A DNA stretch of 37,940 nucleotides from a virus, in the IMG/VR virus record IMGVR_UViG_3300048922_000465, positions 1-37,940 of that record, one strand, 5' to 3'. The position numbers and the translations under genes were made by a program. This document shows, piece by piece, positions 26,163 to 34,086 of this stretch (positions within the stretch are counted from its first letter, which is position 1; the number at the start of each line of letters is the position of its first letter). Under the pieces are notes generated by a model. The model ran no database searches. It saw only the letters and a list, made by a program, of their open reading frames with translations, and was not told where the DNA came from.

Positions 26163-28853
26163 TCATGCTGCAGCCGCCTTGATGTGGTCCCAGTTGTCGA
26201 CGTTCCAGCCCGCCAAGCGTGCCGCAGCCCGCCAAGCAACCACCGCCTTGCCCAGATCGGCTGAACTGAGTGATGGGGGCTGGGAAGCCTGCTCATCGCG
26301 AGGAAAGAAGAACACCCCAAACTTGCGGTTGCTGCCGTCGGTCCAGGGGATGGCGCGGGTCTTATCCACCTCCGAGCTGATGAACAACGAAAACTTCGTC
26401 TGGCTCATCACGTGCTCTTTGTTGCGGTGACACCACTCCAGGAACATCGCGTAAATGTCAGTGGACAAACAGGCGCCCCACATATCACGCCCCAGCTCGC
26501 CGTATTGCCAGAGGAACAGGAAAGTCTGCCAGCTGGCCCTACTCAACGCCACCAATCGCTCACGCGCATCAGTGCTGGGCGGCCTGGTACGCTGGTCGAA
26601 GTCGCCCAGGTCAATGGATAACAACCACGCGTATAGCGCAGCGACACCACCATTCTCCAGTTCACGACCCACCGCCTTCTGGCGCTCCACAGGCAACGTC
26701 TCCATCGGCCACAGCACCAACATTCGCCGGTCACTCGGCGCGATCGGCCAAGGCATAATCTCGTTGCTGAGGAACGCGGCGTTCATGTGGTTGGCTTCCT
26801 CCCAACCGTTGATGAACTTCGACTCCATACGCACCGTCTTGCCGGTCACCAGGTGTTTGATCTTGCCCACCTGGTTGTAACGCTGATCGCGGCTCACGAC
26901 CTCTTCGAACACTGCCCACAACTTGCGGCTTTGCCAGGCGTTGAAGTTACTTTCGAGTTGCGTTTGACCGACCGTGGCCGCGTACTGACCGTAAAGCAAA
27001 CCGAAAGCATCGGCGAACAACAGGCTTTTGCCAGAGCCCTCCATCGTCGAGTGCGCCAGCACCGCCGTATCCATCTTCGCGCCCAGGTGTTGCAACGGGT
27101 ACGCCAACCACTTCACCAGCCAATCGCGTGACGACTGGTCGTGGTTGCACAGGAATGAAATCAACCACCGCAGGTTCTCGCACGCGGCATCTTCGCGCGC
27201 TGGCTCCATGGGCAGGCCGTCGAACGTGTTGATGTAAACGTTGGGATCCTTGGTCATCGTCGGGTCGAACACGATGTTCTCCACGTCGACCACACGCCGC
27301 TCCGGGCTGTTCAACCACATGCCGTACATATCACCGAGGGCCATCTTGACCGCGCCTTCGGCAACCCGCCGTTTCTTTTCCCGGTCCCAAACGTCCTTGG
27401 TACCGTCGATGTACACGTACCGCTCAATTGGCTCAAGGTTCAGAGCACCACCCTTCTTGCCAGCCATCTTGCGGGCTTGCTCGATCTCTTTGACCTTGTC
27501 ATCGGAGATCAGCTTTTTGCTGGTGTCGTCGACCCACTGTTTTGCCAATGGCTTGCCGACGCGAGCCTCAAACGCGGTTTTCTTCATCACCCGCGCCTTG
27601 TCGAGATCCCATACTTGGGTGGTGCCTTCGACCAGCACGTAACGGCGCAGCACCTGTTCATAGGTCAGCACCTCCCCCGCTCCCCCGTTAGCAGCAGGAG
27701 CGGCCTCACTTGGCGCCGCGCTGGAGTCCTGCTCGACGGCATCCGCTGATGGGGCCGGGGGAAGATCCTGTGGGGCTGGGCGCGAGGCATGCTGCATTCC
27801 CAGCATCCGGGCGGCATCCTTCACCGCCTTCGACTGGTCGCCATCGTGATCCAGCAGGCAAAACACCTCAAACGCGTCATTCTGGTGACCGTTGGCCAGC
27901 GGATCCGCGCCGTGGTGCGAATAGACCTTGCGGTCGGTGACCGTCACACCAGGCAGCCCGGTGCTACTGTGTGGATACAGCCATTTGTTACCACGCTTGA
28001 TGTAATCGTGGGCACGCAATAGCTCTTCGACATCGTGGCACCGGTTGAACTCATCAATCACCGAGGGTTTGCCGTCAGCGGGTGGAGCACGCTTGATAGG
28101 TTTCGCGGAGGGCTTCTTCGGTTTAGGCGCCCAAGGGCACGCGGCCTCGGCGTTGCGTTTGAACACATCCCAATTCTGCCAAATGTTCAGCAGCTCGTTG
28201 GTAAGCACCGGCAGACCATCAGCAGCATTCGGCGGAGTGCGCCAGGTGTACGGCTTGCCAGTACCTGGATGGATCGATGGTGGGAACACGTCCTGCACCA
28301 AGCCGGCGCGCAGCTCAAACACCGTGAACCGCTTGTATTCGTCGGCCTCGGCCTTGGCTGCCTCCTCACCGACAGAATCGCCCTGCTCTTTCGCGGCCTT
28401 GGCCCGCGCCATTAACCCTTTGTGAATCGACCCGTCAGGATCTTTCTCATTCGGCCAGGAAAGCGAGTGGCGCGTCAGCTCGATATCATCCGGCATTTTG
28501 AACAGCACGCGGAACCGCAATGGATTACCCACGATGGTCGGATAGACCACCGCCATGGCATCCAGATCGAGGCCCATCTGGTCGAACAATACAAACCGCG
28601 TCCACTGCACATCGTCCACGTCCAATGAACAGACACGGCTGGGCCCGAGCACTACGCCCAGGTTGTGATTTGGATTGCGCTGCCAGAATGCTTCGGCGGC
28701 AACCGGGTCGGTGATGTAACCGCCCGGCTTGTTCCAGCCCATGCCTTTCGGTGCCTTTTCGCCCGGGTCAATTGGGACCAGGGCAAGGTTAAAGGTTTCG
28801 ATGTAGCGGCGAGCCCAGGACGCTATCGCTGTGCTGGTGGATTGCTCACTCAT
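26163..28853 (-). CDS. Bifunctional primase-polymerase/helicase (896 aa)
   Basis: The N-terminal ~200 residues form a prim-pol domain: NLALVPIDPGEKAPKGMGWNKPGGYITDP..., then NLGVVLGPSRVCSLDVDD (about 65-81) with the catalytic acidic pair. A middle part has the GVTVTDRKVYSHHGADPLANGHQNDAFEVFCLLDHDGDQ segment common in phage primases. The C-terminal half is an SF3-like, D5-type helicase with Walker A MEGSGKS ending at residue 610 and a following SRKLWAVFEEV and NEIMPWPIAPSDRRMLV. It should unwind and prime the phage origin. ATG at 28853 overlaps the zinc-finger gene stop. Confidence 0.93.
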   Translation of the reverse strand: MSEQSTSTAIASWARRYIETFNLALVPIDPGEKAPKGMGWNKPGGYITDPVAAEAFWQRNPNHNLGVVLGPSRVCSLDVDDVQWTRFVLFDQMGLDLDAMAVVYPTIVGNPLRFRVLFKMPDDIELTRHSLSWPNEKDPDGSIHKGLMARAKAAKEQGDSVGEEAAKAEADEYKRFTVFELRAGLVQDVFPPSIHPGTGKPYTWRTPPNAADGLPVLTNELLNIWQNWDVFKRNAEAACPWAPKPKKPSAKPIKRAPPADGKPSVIDEFNRCHDVEELLRAHDYIKRGNKWLYPHSSTGLPGVTVTDRKVYSHHGADPLANGHQNDAFEVFCLLDHDGDQSKAVKDAARMLGMQHASRPAPQDLPPAPSADAVEQDSSAAPSEAAPAANGGAGEVLTYEQVLRRYVLVEGTTQVWDLDKARVMKKTAFEARVGKPLAKQWVDDTSKKLISDDKVKEIEQARKMAGKKGGALNLEPIERYVYIDGTKDVWDREKKRRVAEGAVKMALGDMYGMWLNSPERRVVDVENIVFDPTMTKDPNVYINTFDGLPMEPAREDAACENLRWLISFLCNHDQSSRDWLVKWLAYPLQHLGAKMDTAVLAHSTMEGSGKSLLFADAFGLLYGQYAATVGQTQLESNFNAWQSRKLWAVFEEVVSRDQRYNQVGKIKHLVTGKTVRMESKFINGWEEANHMNAAFLSNEIMPWPIAPSDRRMLVLWPMETLPVERQKAVGRELENGGVAALYAWLLSIDLGDFDQRTRPPSTDARERLVALSRASWQTFLFLWQYGELGRDMWGACLSTDIYAMFLEWCHRNKEHVMSQTKFSLFISSEVDKTRAIPWTDGSNRKFGVFFFPRDEQASQPPSLSSADLGKAVVAWRAAARLAGWNVDNWDHIKAAAA

Positions 28854-29053
28854 CGCCGCCGCTCCCGCAACCCCTGACAACTGACGCAGGTCGCACAACC
28901 CTGGATCGTCTGCTGACGAAGTAACGGGATAGGTTCGTCGCAATCCTCACAGAATTGCGCGCTGACGGAGCATGTCGGGCGCGGACGGCTCGCCAATGCG
29001 AGCTGGCGGAAGTACTCGGCGGCATCGTTGGCAATATCGATATCATCAGACAT
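28850..29053 (-). CDS. TraR/DksA-type zinc finger protein (67 aa)
   Basis: A small acidic N terminus (MSDDIDIANDAAEYFRQLALA) leads to a C4 zinc finger: C35-x2-C38 and C56-x2-C59, with the segment FCEDCDEPIPLLRQQTI typical of the DksA/TraR family. Such short phage members can bind the RNA polymerase secondary channel and shift host promoter choice. Start at 29053 overlaps the CII-like gene by eight bases; the longer frame to 29107 is not needed. Coupled on both sides (ATGA to the primase). Confidence 0.88.
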   Translation of the reverse strand: MSDDIDIANDAAEYFRQLALASRPRPTCSVSAQFCEDCDEPIPLLRQQTIQGCATCVSCQGLRERRR

Positions 29054-29534
29054 GATCAGCGCCCTCCATCGCCTTGCGGGCACCAGCCATGATGCCCAGC
29101 ACCTCACGGATAACGTCCATGCCCCGCTGCTCCAGCAAAAGCACTTCGTGGGGCTCCCAGATGTTGTCGGCGGCGCCGTCGTGCATGCAGGCCACGAACT
29201 GGCCTGACTCCTCGAGCATCTTGCCGACAGCCTTCAGCGCATCGGCAGTTGCCGGTACCGGTATTGGCTTGTACCAAACCGCACCTGCCGGCCTGACCAG
29301 CGCGTCCAGCAAGCAAGGATCGCCGGTCAGCCTGATCACCTCTTCCAGCTCATCAGGGTCCAGCCAGCGCCGCTCTTCGTCGTGCTTGACCTTCTTCTGC
29401 AGGCTGTCGTAATCGAGCACCATATCAAGTGCCAAAGCAGTTACGCCGCCCCGGTAATCATGGGCCGCGCGGTAGATCGCTTTGCGGAGAGAAAGAACCG
29501 GCCCAGCGGCCGGTGATTGATCTGTTCGACTCAT
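29046..29534 (-). CDS. CII-like phage regulatory protein (Phage_CP76 family, 162 aa)
   Basis: The sequence LRKAIYRAAHDYRGGVTALALDMVLDYDSLQKKVKHDEERRWLDPDELEEVIRLTGDPCLLDALV is the signature of the phage CII/CP76 regulatory family, with an N-terminal helix-turn-helix of about residues 28-75. It probably activates lysogeny promoters or controls replication genes. It heads the primase operon. Its start codon is one base after a hairpin that holds the ribosome site in its loop (29536-29558), so translation may be regulated. Confidence 0.88.
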   Translation of the reverse strand: MSRTDQSPAAGPVLSLRKAIYRAAHDYRGGVTALALDMVLDYDSLQKKVKHDEERRWLDPDELEEVIRLTGDPCLLDALVRPAGAVWYKPIPVPATADALKAVGKMLEESGQFVACMHDGAADNIWEPHEVLLLEQRGMDVIREVLGIMAGARKAMEGADHV

Positions 29535-29535
29535 A

Positions 29536-29558
29536 ACCGTAAATACCCCTTTTACGGT
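29536..29558 (-). promoter_or_regulatory. Hairpin with the cII ribosome site in its loop
   Basis: Perfect 8-bp arms ACCGTAAA/TTTACGGT (29551-29558 and 29536-29543) enclose the seven-base loop AGGGGTA, which is the ribosome binding site of the CII-like gene; the ATG follows one base later. It can be an RNA switch for translation or, as DNA, an operator dyad. Confidence 0.65.
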
Positions 29559-29627
29559 CTAGCCATAGAAACGGGCACGCCCTATCCTACGACTACGACC
29601 GATGTGCATGTGCTGTGTATCGTCGTA

Positions 29628-29667
29628 GCCGGGCTGGGGGATCTTTGGTGAGAGGCCCCAGCCCGGC
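29628..29667 (-). ncRNA. Hairpin between cro and cII with a conserved 12-base loop motif
   Basis: Perfect 12-bp arms (29628-29639 and 29656-29667) enclose a 16-base loop that reads CCTCTCACCAAAGATC on the minus strand. No T run follows, so it is not a simple terminator. The loop motif recurs on the plus-strand early operon. The place between cro and cII is that of lambda nutR. Confidence 0.7.
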
Positions 29668-29673
29668 ACCCTT

Positions 29674-29883
29674 TTACGCCGCCGCTGGCTTCCGGCGAGA
29701 TCCGATCGGACGGATCTCAAATGCCGAACAAGTCCCGTCAGCGTTCGACTTAACCCAAATGTCTCTATCAGAGCTGAGCATTTGTGATACCGCGCTTTGA
29801 GAAACCTTGAGCAACAGAGCCAACTCTGGCTGTGTTTTGCCCTTCGCGAACAACCGCAAAGGTGCACCAATAATGTTTTCCAT
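29674..29883 (-). CDS. Cro-like repressor (69 aa)
   Basis: The protein is short with a helix-turn-helix at about residues 16-36 (KTQPELALLLKVSQSAVSQML) and a C terminus like other Cro-type proteins (WVKSNADGTCSAFEIRPIGSRRKPAAA). It is divergent to cI and is the first gene of the leftward operon, so it should repress cI and early promoters in lytic growth. The ATG at 29883 has AAGGAAGG upstream; the longer frame to 29943 runs through the promoter. Confidence 0.88.
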   Translation of the reverse strand: MENIIGAPLRLFAKGKTQPELALLLKVSQSAVSQMLSSDRDIWVKSNADGTCSAFEIRPIGSRRKPAAA

Positions 29884-29914
29884 CCTTCCTTCCTCGAATG
29901 GGATTCGCACAAGG

Positions 29915-29943
29915 ATATTAGTGTGACTTCTAAAACTAAGCAA
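29915..29943 (-). promoter_or_regulatory. Promoter of the cro operon (pR-like)
   Basis: On the minus strand TTGCTT (complement of 29938-29943), a 17-base spacer and TAATAT (complement of 29915-29920) precede cro by about 30 bases. The cI-cro gap (29884-30001) should hold the CI and Cro operators, though no clear set of repeated dyads is seen. Confidence 0.7.
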
Positions 29944-29964
29944 CAGGAAATAGACGTCAGACTG

Positions 29965-29992
29965 TTTAGAGTAAATCAGCGCTGCTTATACA
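29965..29992 (+). promoter_or_regulatory. Candidate cI promoter (pRM-like)
   Basis: TTTAGA (29965-29970) and TATACA (29987-29992) are 16 bases apart. Transcription would start near 29999, only a few bases before the ATG at 30002, and there is no ribosome site, so cI mRNA may be leaderless as in lambda. The palindrome CAGCGCTG (29977-29984) lies in the spacer. Confidence 0.5.
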
Positions 29993-30001
29993 GTATCCGC
30001 T

Positions 30002-30883
30002 ATGCATACTGATAAGCCCTCGAAGCCCGATATCGATCGCCTGCTATCCCAAAAGCGTCTCGCACGCCAAAACGTGCCAGATCCAATAAGGGAGAAAGAA
30101 GCACGCCTCTTGAAGGCAAAATACCTCGCCGCGAAAAAGGTCGACCCATCTCTAAATCAAGAGAAGATTGCGGATATGTGCGGCTGGGCAGGGCAAAGCG
30201 TAGTGAGCCAATACCTCAACGCGAAAATCCCACTCAACCTCTCTGCCCTCGTAAAGTTCGCCGGCATACTCAATTTTGATCCGAGTGAAGTCAGCCCTAG
30301 ACTGACCGAATCACATCCAGCAATGGAGGTTGAACACTTCTACCCTAAGTCGCCTTCCGGCCCCCGCTGGGACAACCTAGTCATCTCAAGTCGCGAAGAA
30401 AACAATGCGCTTCGGATGGCTCCGTTTGATCTGCGGGGCGACAACGCAGCCCCGGGGGAAGGCGAAGTGGCCCTGCCCTTCTTCCGCGAAGCTGAGCTCT
30501 CCGCAGGACAAGGAACTGTGGTCATGCTTGATTCGAATGGTCGGAAGCAAATTTTTGCAAAAAGCGTTCTCAGTCTTAAGAACATAGATCCGGAGGCTGC
30601 AGGCTGCGCTACCGTTAGCGGCAATAGCATGGACCCCGTTCTGCCAGACGGCAGCATCGTAGGCGTCGATACAGCTTCCAGGAGTGTCCAAGACGGAAAA
30701 ATGTATGCACTGGACCACGACGGCCTGCTTCATGTGAAGTTGCTATACAGACTGCCAGGTGGGGGGTTGCGGTTGAAGAGCTACAATGACGCTGAACATC
30801 CTGACGAACGATATGACGGTACCTATGTTAGCCAGCATATTCGCGTTCTCGGAAAGGTGTTCTGGTACTCCGTACTGCTCTAA
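30002..30883 (+). CDS. cI: CI-like repressor with S24 peptidase domain (293 aa)
   Basis: The N-terminal half has a helix-turn-helix at about residues 52-76 (NQEKIADMCGWAGQSVVSQYL). The C-terminal half is an S24 LexA-like self-cleavage domain: Ser-209 in VSGNSMDPVLPDGSIV and Lys-246 in HVKLLYR, 37 residues apart as in LexA. A fitting cleavage site is Ala-168/Gly-169 in ELSAGQGTVV. The repressor should keep the lysogen and be inactivated with RecA after DNA damage. A 30-residue basic extension precedes the usual start. It has its own terminator. Confidence 0.93.
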   Translation: MHTDKPSKPDIDRLLSQKRLARQNVPDPIREKEARLLKAKYLAAKKVDPSLNQEKIADMCGWAGQSVVSQYLNAKIPLNLSALVKFAGILNFDPSEVSPRLTESHPAMEVEHFYPKSPSGPRWDNLVISSREENNALRMAPFDLRGDNAAPGEGEVALPFFREAELSAGQGTVVMLDSNGRKQIFAKSVLSLKNIDPEAAGCATVSGNSMDPVLPDGSIVGVDTASRSVQDGKMYALDHDGLLHVKLLYRLPGGGLRLKSYNDAEHPDERYDGTYVSQHIRVLGKVFWYSVLL

Positions 30884-30902
30884 TTCCACTTCACGCATCA
30901 AG

Positions 30903-30923
30903 GCCGCTTCAAGCGGTCTTTTT
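30903..30923 (+). terminator. Terminator after cI
   Basis: CCGCTT and AAGCGG (30903-30915) form a tight palindrome followed by TCTTTTTTG. It isolates cI from the early operon promoter at 30954. Confidence 0.8.
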
Positions 30924-30953
30924 TGTGCCCGGTGAAAACAGGGCAAAGATATA

Positions 30954-30982
30954 TTGACAGCTTATATCAGCTGGACTAATTT
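30954..30982 (+). promoter_or_regulatory. Strong early promoter (pL-like) with operator dyad
   Basis: A perfect TTGACA (30954-30959), 17 bases, and TAATTT (30977-30982) form the best promoter of the window. The dyad CAGCT...AGCTG (30958-30962 and 30969-30973) overlaps the -35 and spacer and is a likely repressor site. GCTTATA followed by CAG occurs here and near the cI promoter, a hint of a common operator half. Confidence 0.8.
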
Positions 30983-31020
30983 TATGAGCGACAAAGCCTC
31001 TCACCAAGGGTTACCCGCTC

Positions 31021-31221
31021 ATGAATATCACACAGCACATCAACACCCGCTGCCCGGTCTACCTTCACCCGACGGCGGCAACCAGCCCCGCCGCCGTAGA
31101 ACGTATCCAGCGCATCACTGGCCTTCTGGTCATCGTCAATCTGGGGCGCGCCACCATTGCACCCGCGCCCGTAGCCGTCGCCACCGATGACCACGGCCCA
31201 TGGGGCGGTGACGCAGCATGA
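31021..31221 (+). CDS. Small unknown early protein (66 aa)
   Basis: First gene of the rightward early operon. The product MNITQHINTRCPVYLHPTAA and on is a small soluble protein without a motif that I can name; similar small genes occur at this place in Pseudomonas phages to my recall. AAGGG lies 11 bases before the ATG. It overlaps the next gene as ATGA. In lambda the matching position holds the N antiterminator, but this product is not Arg-rich at its N terminus, so an N-like role is doubtful. Confidence 0.65.
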   Translation: MNITQHINTRCPVYLHPTAATSPAAVERIQRITGLLVIVNLGRATIAPAPVAVATDDHGPWGGDAA

Positions 31222-31484
31222 GCAGTTACCTAATTCCATTGGCTCGCCAAGAGCTGCTGCACCACGTGCTGCAGGTCGGTGGCAGCGCAGTGTGCGGCCT
31301 GACCCGCCCTGAGCAAACCATCCACGCAACCTTTGAGGTTGAGCTGACTACCGAGCATGCCGTCGTCACTGTGGATGTTGCAGGCAAAACCCAATTGCTC
31401 AAGTTGAAGCGCAAGGATCCGGCCAACCACCTGCACCTGCGCGACTTCATCCAGAAAGCCGCCAACGCACCCGCATCGGCCTGA
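31218..31484 (+). CDS. Unknown early protein (88 aa)
   Basis: A soluble protein of mixed helix and strand (LIPLARQELLHHVLQVGGSAVCGLTRPEQTIHATFEVELTTEHAVVTV) with a His-rich middle. No domain is recognised. Coupled to the first gene by ATGA and followed after ten bases by the next gene, so co-expressed from the early promoter. Confidence 0.65.
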   Translation: MSSYLIPLARQELLHHVLQVGGSAVCGLTRPEQTIHATFEVELTTEHAVVTVDVAGKTQLLKLKRKDPANHLHLRDFIQKAANAPASA

Positions 31485-31494
31485 GGACAGCGCC

Positions 31495-31770
31495 ATGAAC
31501 CGCACCCTGGATCAAACAGCCGCTTTGCTCGGGCTCAAGCCCCGCGCCTTCCGCACCAGGTTGCGGGAACTGGGCGTGCTGAATTCTTCCGGCGATCTAG
31601 CCAGCGCACACCGCGAGCGCGGCTACCTGTTCTCCGACCCCCGCAGCCGCTGGAATCCAACACTCCACAACTACACCCACTACTCCGTGGTGCTGGTCAA
31701 GGAAGCGGGTGTTGAGTGGATCGCCAAGAAGCTGGACATCGCCATCACCAACAAGGACGCAGCAGCATGA
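31495..31770 (+). CDS. Stand-alone ANT-type DNA-binding domain protein (91 aa)
   Basis: The sequence TLDQTAALLGLKPRAFRTRLRELGVLNSSGDLASAHRERGYLF......SVVLVKEAGVEWIAKKL fits the C-terminal domain of phage antirepressors (ANT, KilAC-like), with a helix-turn-helix at about residues 4-27. No N-terminal antirepressor domain is present. It may be a small regulator or a replication-associated protein. Coupled to the next gene by ATGA. Confidence 0.75.
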   Translation: MNRTLDQTAALLGLKPRAFRTRLRELGVLNSSGDLASAHRERGYLFSDPRSRWNPTLHNYTHYSVVLVKEAGVEWIAKKLDIAITNKDAAA

Positions 31771-32144
31771 AGACGCCGAACGCCATCAACTCCGCTGTAG
31801 GCGCCCTGAAACTGGTGCCGATGTACCTCAACCACCCGACGGTGATCAGCCGCGCCACGCTGATTGGCGCCTCGGCCGAAGCTGTCGCGCTGCTGGAGGC
31901 GTTGCCCTGCGTGTCGGTTGAGTTGGCCGAAGTGTTCCGCTGCGTTGACGCAGTGATCGCAGAAGGTCAGATCGCCTACGTGACGCCGGTGAAGTGCCCG
32001 GAATACCCATACGGTGCCGTCGTCGCGGACGCCGAGGGTAGCGTCCTGGCAGCGGCCAAGGGCAAGAGCAAGGAAGGTCTCGCCGAACTGATCCGCCTCA
32101 AGCTGGTGCCCCGAAAGGAGGGGTATGGGGAGGAATCCGCGTGA
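31767..32144 (+). CDS. Unknown early protein (125 aa)
   Basis: The ATG at 31767 overlaps the previous stop. The product has a hydrophobic-moment-rich N-terminal half (INSAVGALKLVPMYLNHPTVISRATLIGASAEAVALLEAL) and a C-terminal part that resembles short dsRBD- or DUF-like phage proteins only vaguely. No function is assigned. The stop overlaps the PrtN-like gene start (GTGA). Confidence 0.6.
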   Translation: MKTPNAINSAVGALKLVPMYLNHPTVISRATLIGASAEAVALLEALPCVSVELAEVFRCVDAVIAEGQIAYVTPVKCPEYPYGAVVADAEGSVLAAAKGKSKEGLAELIRLKLVPRKEGYGEESA

Positions 32145-32383
32145 CCACCACCCTGGAACAACTCCGGCGCCAGTTCGCCACGCCTTGCCCAAGCTTGACC
32201 GCGGTGCGTGAACAGTACTTCACGCACATCCGCACCGACCGCTACCTGCTGAGCGAAATCAAGGCAGGTCGTATCGCGCTGGTGGTCAAGCGGCTGCACT
32301 GCTCGGCCCGTGCCAAGCCCGTCGTTTACCTCCACGACCTGGCCGACTACCTCGACGCCCAAGCGACGAAGCAAGCGGCCTGA
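32141..32383 (+). CDS. PrtN-family pyocin activator-like protein (80 aa)
   Basis: The core YFTHIRTDRYLLSEIKAGRIALVVKRLH......PVVYLHDLADYLDAQ matches the PrtN pyocin activator family (in PrtN: DYFTH......KI..GEI.LP.VR......VHLQDLA.YID). PrtN activates pyocin genes in P. aeruginosa by binding P boxes. Members in phages often lie in the early operon and may work as regulators or directionality factors. GTG start with GGAGG eight bases upstream. Confidence 0.85.
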   Translation: MTTTLEQLRRQFATPCPSLTAVREQYFTHIRTDRYLLSEIKAGRIALVVKRLHCSARAKPVVYLHDLADYLDAQATKQAA

Positions 32384-32394
32384 TTCAAACGGTA

Positions 32395-32413
32395 GCCCCT
32401 GCCGACCAGGGGC
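32395..32413 (+). ncRNA. Intergenic hairpin in the early operon
   Basis: Perfect 7-bp arms GCCCCTG/CAGGGGC (32395-32401 and 32407-32413) enclose a five-base loop, without a T run. It lies in the 54-base gap after the PrtN-like gene. It could protect or set the decay of mRNA segments. Confidence 0.5.
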
Positions 32414-32437
32414 GACACAGCCAATGAGGCACAGCAC

Positions 32438-32785
32438 ATGAACACCAAAGCACGTCCCTTTATGGACACCCTGCGCGACATCGAGGCCGGTGGCCTGCTG
32501 GACGAACTCACCGAGGCCCAGCACAGCCTGATCGACGCCATCCGCATGACCGGCAAGGGCGGCGATCTGACCATCAAACTTACCTACAAGCCAGATGGCG
32601 GCGGCCAGATGACAGTGAAGGCCGACGTAAAGACCAAAGAGCCTGTACTGGCGCGCGGAACGTCGCTGTTCTTCCTCACGCCCGAAGGCAACATCACCCG
32701 CCGCGACCCGCGCCAGCAGGAAATCCCGCTGCGCAGTGTCGAGGATGAACCCGGGCCTGGAGCTTTGCGCCAGGTCAGCCAGTAA
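32438..32785 (+). CDS. Conserved phage protein of unknown role (115 aa)
   Basis: The product MNTKARPFMDTLRDIEAGGL and on (about 30 residues helical) continues with a beta part (DLTIKLTYKPDGGGQMTVKADVKTKEP) and a segment LARGTSLFFLTPEGNITRRDPRQQE. This layout is common in Pseudomonas phage early regions, directly before the DUF2303 gene. Role unknown; the beta part could be a nucleic-acid or protein binding fold. Confidence 0.7.
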   Translation: MNTKARPFMDTLRDIEAGGLLDELTEAQHSLIDAIRMTGKGGDLTIKLTYKPDGGGQMTVKADVKTKEPVLARGTSLFFLTPEGNITRRDPRQQEIPLRSVEDEPGPGALRQVSQ

Positions 32786-32836
32786 CGCCCGCCCCACCAA
32801 CCTCTCACCAAATCGTCACCCACTGGAGCACATCCT

Positions 32837-33658
32837 ATGCAACAAGCCCTACAGCACCTGGTCACCCTGGCTCAGTCCCTCGGCAAACCAATGGAGGTCC
32901 CGGGCATCCCTGCGCCACTGGCACTCGTACCGAACGGGGTCAGCATCGAAAGCCTGGAACACCTGCTGCCCGCGCCTTCACGCATCAGGCAGAAGCTCAC
33001 CGTGCTCGATGCCGAGTCGTTCATCAGCTACGTGAATCGTTTTTCCACTCAGGCCACGGCAGTGTTTTGCAACGGCCCCGAAGGCCGGACTTTCACGGCA
33101 GTCATCGACTACCACGATCCGGCCGCGCCCGCCTGGCGCGATCATGTCGCGACGTACCGCTGCCCGACCACCGTTGAATGGGGCAACTGGAAGGAAAAGG
33201 ACCGCAAGCGCATGGACCAGGCCACCTTCGCCGAATTCATCGAAGACAACGTGAAGGACATCACCCACCACCCCGAGCACGAGAACACCCCAAGCGCTGC
33301 TGACATGCTCGAAATCAGCCGCACCCTGGAAGCCAAGAAGAACATCACGTTCCGCCAAGGCACCCGCCTCGACAACGGCCAGGTGCAACTGACCTACAAC
33401 GAAGAAATCGACGGGCGCGCCGGCGAAGCTGGCCAACTGCGTATCCCCGAAGAGTTCTTCATCGCGCTCAAGCCATTCCTCGGCGGCGACGCCTTCTGCG
33501 TGCCCGCCCGTTTCCGCTACCGCATTCAGGAAGGCCGACTGGTCATGTGGTACGAACTGGTGCGGGCCGACAAGGTGCTCGAAGAAGCCTACAACGCCGT
33601 GCGCGCCAAGATCGAAGGCGCCATCAACGACGTGCCGCTCTATGAAGCCACGATCTAA
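32837..33658 (+). CDS. DUF2303 family protein, YfdQ-like (273 aa)
   Basis: The protein fits DUF2303 (YfdQ of the E. coli prophage CPS-53): SFISYVNRFSTQATAVFC......TAVIDYHDP..PAWRDHVATYRCPTTVEWGNW, FAEFIEDNVKDI and a C-terminal PEEFFIALKPFLGG..FCVPARFRYRIQEGRLVMWYEL. Function is unknown, although the strict place in early operons hints at a DNA-metabolism or host-takeover role. It is followed by an HD protein as YfdQ is by YfdR. Confidence 0.9.
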   Translation: MQQALQHLVTLAQSLGKPMEVPGIPAPLALVPNGVSIESLEHLLPAPSRIRQKLTVLDAESFISYVNRFSTQATAVFCNGPEGRTFTAVIDYHDPAAPAWRDHVATYRCPTTVEWGNWKEKDRKRMDQATFAEFIEDNVKDITHHPEHENTPSAADMLEISRTLEAKKNITFRQGTRLDNGQVQLTYNEEIDGRAGEAGQLRIPEEFFIALKPFLGGDAFCVPARFRYRIQEGRLVMWYELVRADKVLEEAYNAVRAKIEGAINDVPLYEATI

Positions 33659-33675
33659 CTAACTCCCTGCAACAC

Positions 33676-33714
33676 CCCGCCGCCGTCCTCTCACCAAAAC
33701 TGTCCGGCGGCGGG
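33676..33714 (+). ncRNA. Strong hairpin with the conserved 12-base loop motif
   Basis: Perfect 10-bp GC arms CCCGCCGCCG and CGGCGGCGGG (33676-33685 and 33705-33714) enclose a 19-base loop that contains CCTCTCACCAAA (33687-33698). No T run follows. Same motif and same loop place as the cro-cII hairpin on the other strand. Confidence 0.7.
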
Positions 33715-33735
33715 CTCTAACGAGGCATACAGCAC

Positions 33736-34086
33736 ATGCAAATCGAAACTTACATCATCGTCGCCGGCCTGCTCGTAGGCTGGATTGCGACCGCTTTCTT
33801 CCTGATAAAAGCGAGCAAAAAAGCCTTTGCGCGAGGCTTTGAACGCGGCGTCAACCTGGCCCGCGAGCAGCATGCCGCTTCGCCTGCCTGCACCATCGAC
33901 GACCACGAACTGATGACGAAGATCACCACGTCACTGGGACTAGCCGTGGAAACCTGGCAAGCGTTCCCAGGAACAGAAATCATGGTCGCCAGGGTGAACA
34001 AGCAGCGCCGACAGCTGACCGCCTTCGCCGCGAAGATGTGGATAGCGGCCTACCCTGCACCACTCAATGCGGAGGATGCAGCATGA
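33736..34086 (+). CDS. Membrane-anchored small protein (116 aa)
   Basis: An N-terminal membrane helix (YIIVAGLLVGWIATAFFLI, residues about 5-23) is followed by a basic helical segment (KASKKAFARGFERGVNLAREQHA) and a soluble C-terminal part of ~60 residues. No family is recognised. ATGA overlap couples it to the HD protein. Confidence 0.7.
   Translation: MQIETYIIVAGLLVGWIATAFFLIKASKKAFARGFERGVNLAREQHAASPACTIDDHELMTKITTSLGLAVETWQAFPGTEIMVARVNKQRRQLTAFAAKMWIAAYPAPLNAEDAA

Follow-up and report, generated by a model that had tools for sequence, protein, structure and literature searches.

The DNA analyzed here, called the window for simplicity, is the 37.9-kb stretch (37,940 nucleotides, nt) of IMG/VR record IMGVR_UViG_3300048922_000465, a viral record that represents a lambda-like Pseudomonas prophage. 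The element under study is a short motif, box1 (CCTCTCACCAAA), which recurs on both early transcripts of this phage and is followed by a second motif, box2 (CAGCAC). The immunity region comprises cI at 30002-30883 (+) and cro at 29674-29883 (-), followed on the cro transcript by cII at 29046-29534 (-) with the primase gene beyond it. The pL operon starts near 30990 (+). Its probable promoter, as read from the sequence, consists of TTGACA (30954-30959) and TAATTT (30977-30982) on the plus strand, separated by 17 nt, and the cI terminator (30900-30920) lies upstream of it; a scan for consensus promoters and terminators did not return the pL promoter and recovered only the cI terminator there. 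The first gene of the operon, gene 1 at 31021-31221 (+), encodes a protein of 66 amino acids that belongs to phrog_13491 and is the candidate reader of box1.

Box1 copies and hairpins in the window

Box1 is present as three exact 12-mers at 29644-29655 (-), 32801-32812 (+) and 33687-33698 (+) and as a fourth copy with 11 of 12 bases at 30997-31008 (+). The initial annotation had placed these copies correctly and had described all of them as lying in gaps between genes and in transcript sense, which holds for all four. The 7-mer CTCTCAC is found at just these four places in the window when both strands are counted. Two perfect hairpins with box1 in the loop had been reported as well, one with a 12-bp stem at 29628-29667 (-) and one with a 10-bp stem at 33676-33714 (+): both are real, and a third at the pL copy had been missed. 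Folding z scores were -4.6 for the cro-cII hairpin, -4.4 for the pL hairpin and -3.2 for the hairpin after the DUF2303 gene, and 0 of 200 shuffles folded as well as the first and the last of these.

The sites were named according to their position. Site A lies between cro and cII, where a 141-nt stretch of the minus strand folds into four successive hairpins (fold z -5.0). Hairpin 1 (29628-29667), supported by the fold and by covarying arms in relatives, follows the cro stop directly and carries box1 in its loop; hairpin 2 (29594-29627), supported by the fold and conserved pairs, has the stem CTACGAC/GTCGTAG with box2 (ACACAGCACATG, CAGCAC at 29610-29615) in its loop. The remaining two are supported by the fold and by relatives: hairpin 3 (29562-29593) is a conserved stem-loop between box2 and cII, and hairpin 4 (29535-29559; arms ACCGTAAA/TTTACGGT) holds the GGGG of the cII ribosome-binding sequence in its loop. 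Lying directly before the cII start, hairpin 4 likely serves translational control of cII. A terminator-like hairpin within the first cII codons, at 29497-29514 (-), is a possible analogue of tR1 and does not rise above the shuffled background.

Site P is the hairpin formed by the beginning of the pL transcript (30981-31025 (+)) with the 11-of-12 copy of box1; it overlaps the ribosome-binding region of gene 1, and its box2 (CACAGCAC, 31031-31038 (+)) lies inside gene 1 at codons 4-6. Site C (32801-32812 (+)) is the box1 copy upstream of the DUF2303 gene; it has no hairpin (z +1) and is followed by a partial box2 (GGAGCACATCC) before the start codon. Site D is the hairpin after the DUF2303 gene (33676-33714 (+), box1 at 33687-33698), with box2 (ATACAGCAC, 33728-33735 (+)) directly before the start codon at 33736.

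Conservation and covariation in relatives

Relatives were gathered by protein scans of viral contigs (DUF2303 plus CII), from phage records and by a scan of bacterial genomes. The sample comprises ~230 viral loci and 80 prophage loci, many loci sharing contigs, so that locus counts are not counts of independent phages; the prophage loci are nearly all from Pseudomonas, plus Stutzerimonas, Halopseudomonas and a few metagenome-assembled genomes. Throughout this sample the box1 core is among the most widely shared words. The core CCTCTCACCA was present in 146 of the ~156 relatives gathered first and the 9-mer CTCTCACCA occurred 590 times in relatives, compared with 5 times for its reversed control, which excludes chance.

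The copies recur at fixed sites: A directly after the cro stop, P at the 5' end of the pL transcript with a clean stem, B before the phrog_204 gene in some relatives, C before DUF2303 and usually without a hairpin, and D after DUF2303. Every complete relative carries the element both at pL +1 and in the cro-cII gap. The initial annotation had likened the positions to lambda nut sites, and this likeness extends to many phages, in which the element follows pL at the transcript 5' end and is also present in the cro-cII gap of the pR transcript. It had also named, as findings that would speak against a functional element, related phages without the motif, hairpin or position and a 12-mer common in the host. 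Relatives instead keep all three, and the bare 12-mer is rare in the host, with 40 matches across 150 Pseudomonas genomes and no excess over its reversed control. The two-part pattern of box1 and box2 occurred 30 times in 13 of these 150 genomes, compared with 2 occurrences for reversed controls, and most of the 30 were grouped in twos or threes within ~5 kb on diverging strands, as expected of prophages. DNA pattern scans of viral contigs found the element together with the module of gene 1, g3, g4, g5 and cII (for the C class, among the matches listed); exceptions to this link were truncated stretches and chance matches in coding sequence.

The arms of the hairpins were assessed by counting strong stems, defined as stems with a score of at least 18 that enclose box1, against two controls, in which the arms were swapped between phages or the flanks were shuffled. 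At site A, 69% of 210 distinct copies form strong stems (15% after arm swapping, 3% with shuffled flanks), and at site P 54% of 123 distinct copies do so (18% and 1%, respectively). At site D the proportion is 93% of 58 distinct copies, compared with 86% after arm swapping and 1% with shuffled flanks. The arm-swap figures thus indicate strong covariation at A and P, the covariation that the initial annotation had proposed to look for, while the arms of D are simply conserved. Accordingly, its statement that the arms differ and the loop is kept applies between phages to the cro-cII and pL sites, where the arms are variable, and fails at the site after DUF2303. In an RNAalifold alignment of 24 site-A regions, 8 of 32 consensus pairs showed double compensatory changes. 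Site A may be a tandem array of 2-5 copies that share their loop while their arms are unrelated; upstream of cII in four loci (L182, L235, L072 and L192), tandem arrays of up to eight hairpins were observed between cro and cII, with box1 and box2 loops alternating.

These data also bear on a signal acting at the DNA level, such as an operator, a partition site or a recombination-hotspot sequence. Such a signal would fit the observation that the site-A hairpin coincides with a mosaic boundary where unrelated cro genes end; however, the orientation of the sites always follows transcription, the arms covary in a manner that keeps pairing, and loop and arms evolve independently, so that we consider this explanation highly improbable. 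Unrelated cro genes stop exactly at the hairpin (29628-29674 (-); relatives such as L083, L087 and L098), and judged from these gene ends the immunity region has a recombination boundary at the site-A hairpin.

A constant second box

Box2 accompanies box1 in all loop classes: CAGCAC occurs within 70 nt after box1 at 185 of 201 P sites and at 143 of 145 D sites, with a spacing of 10-40 nt downstream of the box1 hairpin. At site P, where it falls inside gene 1, the Gln-His pair is encoded as CAGCAC in 119 of 120 distinct genes, compared with only 56% CAG among other Gln codons, and two loci (L161 and L318) retain these bases in a different frame. At sites B and D box2 directly precedes the ATG, and site A retains it even in loci that lack a following ATG (L006, L109, L073). 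Because it is kept in another frame, as codons and without an ATG, box2 is a nucleic-acid signal and not only start-codon context.

Concerted loop classes

The loop core has one sequence per phage at its sites, namely CUCUCAC in most phages and CUCUGAC, CUCUAC or CUCUAT in others, and distant members carry the cores CACTCACC, CACTTACC and CACCTACC. Among 171 loci with at least three CTCT[CGT]AC sites each, 166 were uniform, whereas permutations gave 115 on average and at most 123; some of the five non-uniform loci are explained by chance matches in the longer segment scanned at site A. In the G class (CUCUGAC), 61 of 61 sites across 11 loci carry G. The P. aeruginosa phages Lodos (CUCUCAC) and LPPA56 (CUCUAC) belong to different classes, and in each of them A, P and D all carry the version of that phage. 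The arms at most sites are unrelated, which makes gene conversion improbable as the source of this uniformity. The sites are dispersed over both transcripts and change in concert, and must therefore share a reader that differs between phages.

Two kinds of reader were rejected. A loop class determined by the host is ruled out by the presence of two classes among P. aeruginosa phages, and a fully complementary antisense RNA is ruled out since neither the window nor the complete phage KT1 (two complete or near-complete phages) has the complement of the core 7-mer anywhere but at the sites. Together, the differences between phages of the same host species and the lack of an antisense copy imply a phage-encoded reader.

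RNA processing or stability hairpins, i.e. RNase III or RNase E sites or 5' protecting stems that would divide the early polycistronic messages, are an improbable alternative. The hairpins are intergenic and the pL copy occupies the very 5' terminus of its transcript, as this alternative would have it, but neither a concerted loop of 7-10 nt nor a second linear box is needed for processing, and site C carries the motif without a hairpin. The covarying arms, kept loops, second box and concerted loop switching, all read from sequence comparisons, strongly support the RNA-binding element that the initial annotation had put forward; that annotation had not mentioned box2, the hairpin at pL or the concerted behavior of the loops.

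Candidate reader of the loop

The best candidate for the phage-encoded reader is the product of gene 1, which probably recognizes the loop; the case is circumstantial. Between phages of different loop classes the highest protein identity reached by gene 1 is 92.6%, compared with 99.4% for cII and 100% for g3, the PrtN-like g5, the TraR-like protein and the primase; g4 is likewise identical or nearly identical in phages of different classes. Phage Meadow and locus L170 have different loops at A, P and D: their genes from cII to terminase are 99-100% identical and most other pL genes 90-99%, whereas gene 1 is 78% identical and cI and cro are unrelated. Gene 1 is under purifying selection, with a ratio of nonsynonymous to synonymous substitution rates (Ka/Ks) of 0.24, and its position in the pL operon is that of N in lambda. 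No Pfam or NCBIfam family matched gene 1, and its PHROG is of unknown function.

Other candidates were tried and rejected. Since identical proteins occur in different classes, g3, g5, the TraR-like protein and the primase are ruled out as specificity determinants. DUF2303 is ruled out as reader by Lodos, which lacks a recognizable copy and yet keeps the sites, and a tiny arginine-rich open reading frame (MHIGRSRRIGRARFYG) after the site-A hairpin is ruled out by the loss of its start codon in many relatives.

Proposed mechanism

Taken together, the findings suggest a hitherto undescribed RNA-reading switch whose specificity differs between phages and which probably acts in antitermination, the function that the initial annotation had named first, with RNA processing or translation as its alternatives. 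In the mechanism that we favor, the hairpin would present box1 (core CUCU[C/G/-]AC) in its loop, followed by the constant linear box2. A phage-encoded protein, for which gene 1 is the candidate, would bind the phage-specific loop when RNA polymerase is leaving pL or moving past cro, while a constant and probably host-encoded factor would bind box2, so that box1 would take the role of boxB and box2 that of boxA. Both factors would then modify the polymerase for read-through of terminators in the long early operons, and the additional copies in the pL operon may reload or reinforce the complex. The overlap of the gene 1 ribosome-binding region with the pL hairpin would allow autoregulation. Judged by position, bipartite build and phage-specific loop, we give about even chances to the sites being a nut-like, bipartite RNA signal for early antitermination. 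A more specific proposal appears possible but is held more tentatively: a new type of processive antitermination that combines a CUCUnAC-loop hairpin and a CAGCAC box with a small, not arginine-rich reader (gene 1, phrog_13491) unrelated to N, and that comprises at least five coevolving loop-specificity classes across Pseudomonas phages.

Several observations weigh against antitermination read by gene 1. No residue column of gene 1 or of any other early protein separates the loop classes. The gene 1 protein of the window is not arginine-rich (4 lysine or arginine residues in 66 amino acids) and is predicted to be mostly disordered, with a low-confidence model (predicted local distance difference test, pLDDT, 63) that found no match to a solved fold in the PDB. 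Physical linkage ties gene 1 to the immunity region, and cI and cro likewise always differ between loop classes. No convincing downstream terminator was found, with 15 Rho-independent terminator-like sites compared with 11.2 expected from shuffled sequence. Finally, the distance from sites P, B, C and D to a start codon is at most ~20-50 nt, an arrangement equally compatible with translational control.

The strongest competing explanation is translational control, given that start codons lie next to most sites of the pL operon. A phage RNA-binding protein on the loop would repress or activate the next gene, and the early operons would form a post-transcriptional regulon. In its favor, a start codon follows shortly after each of P, B, C and D, and at B and D box2 stands directly before the ATG; in addition, the pL hairpin shares bases with the ribosome-binding region of gene 1, and hairpin 4 covers the ribosome-binding sequence of cII. 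On the other hand, site A, the richest in copies, is ~100-150 nt away from cII and right after the cro stop, and its box2 persists without a following ATG; at site D the hairpin does not include the ribosome-binding sequence, and site C lacks a hairpin altogether. On balance we regard translational operators as rather unlikely, though well ahead of RNA processing.

Comparison with known systems

As a nut-like signal, the element resembles lambda nutL and nutR with N in several respects: it follows pL and is also placed between cro and cII, each time oriented with the transcript, it is bipartite with a phage-specific hairpin loop and a constant linear box, and its reader gene is probably the first of the pL operon. 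It differs in that the hairpin precedes the linear box, the loops are usually 8-18 nt with CUCUnAC instead of a GNRA-like pentaloop, and additional copies occur within the pL operon and as tandem arrays at the pR site. A boxA-like GCTCTTWA was not found anywhere in the window; box1 resembles CUCUUAC but is loop-borne and varies between phages. Nor was an arginine-rich N found after pL, where gene 1 is encoded. Without boxA, a GNRA boxB and an arginine-rich N, the element is not a member of the lambda nut family. The Pseudomonas lambdoid phages published so far reportedly have no N homologue, e.g. YA3 (PMC7326022).

The positions also match those of putL and putR of HK022, in which case the RNA itself would bind RNA polymerase without any phage protein. 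In the window site A is located ~250 nt from pR, a distance similar to the about 270 nt of HK022 putR (PMC9378689), and it forms two adjacent stem-loops of ~74 nt as in put; the pL site has one clear stem only. Unlike put, the element is present at more than two sites per genome, and its loops switch as a set among phages of the same host species, which argues against factor-free action: a fixed host polymerase would not select for such a switch, and a phage-encoded reader is implied. A blastn search with the site-A region against 50,697 phage records returned only Pseudomonas phages and chance Acinetobacter matches, with no similarity to put or the coliphages. A put-like element is therefore very unlikely, slightly more so than processing hairpins.

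In the LoaP/dfn system an RNA hairpin is recognized for processive antitermination. LoaP is, however, a NusG paralogue of Firmicutes and related bacteria, and no such gene was seen here. Q-type factors are usually recruited at promoter DNA, in contrast to the RNA signal on early transcripts described here. Q, which acts at late promoters, and AlpA of the P. aeruginosa alp genes share with the proposed system that antitermination operates in Pseudomonas phage-related operons (PMC7969949). No Rfam family reached the gathering threshold in the window, and a permissive search gave only weak matches below the gathering score; a literature search of open-licence papers yielded no recognized description of the element. 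The element offers a concrete, testable answer to how early operons are controlled across the genus, with defined RNA sites, natural classes that can be swapped and candidate readers, and a loop code of multiple specificities would serve to build orthogonal RNA-protein switches in Pseudomonas.

Neighboring genes

Two further genes of the early region recur among the relatives. A PrtN-like protein (PF11112, pyocin activator) is encoded in the pL operon at 32141-32383 (+), and nearly all relatives have one. After cII, at 28850-29053 (-), lies a gene for a small TraR/DksA-type C4 zinc-finger protein that is conserved throughout the group; relatives of TraR in phages reprogram the host RNA polymerase (PMC9239242).

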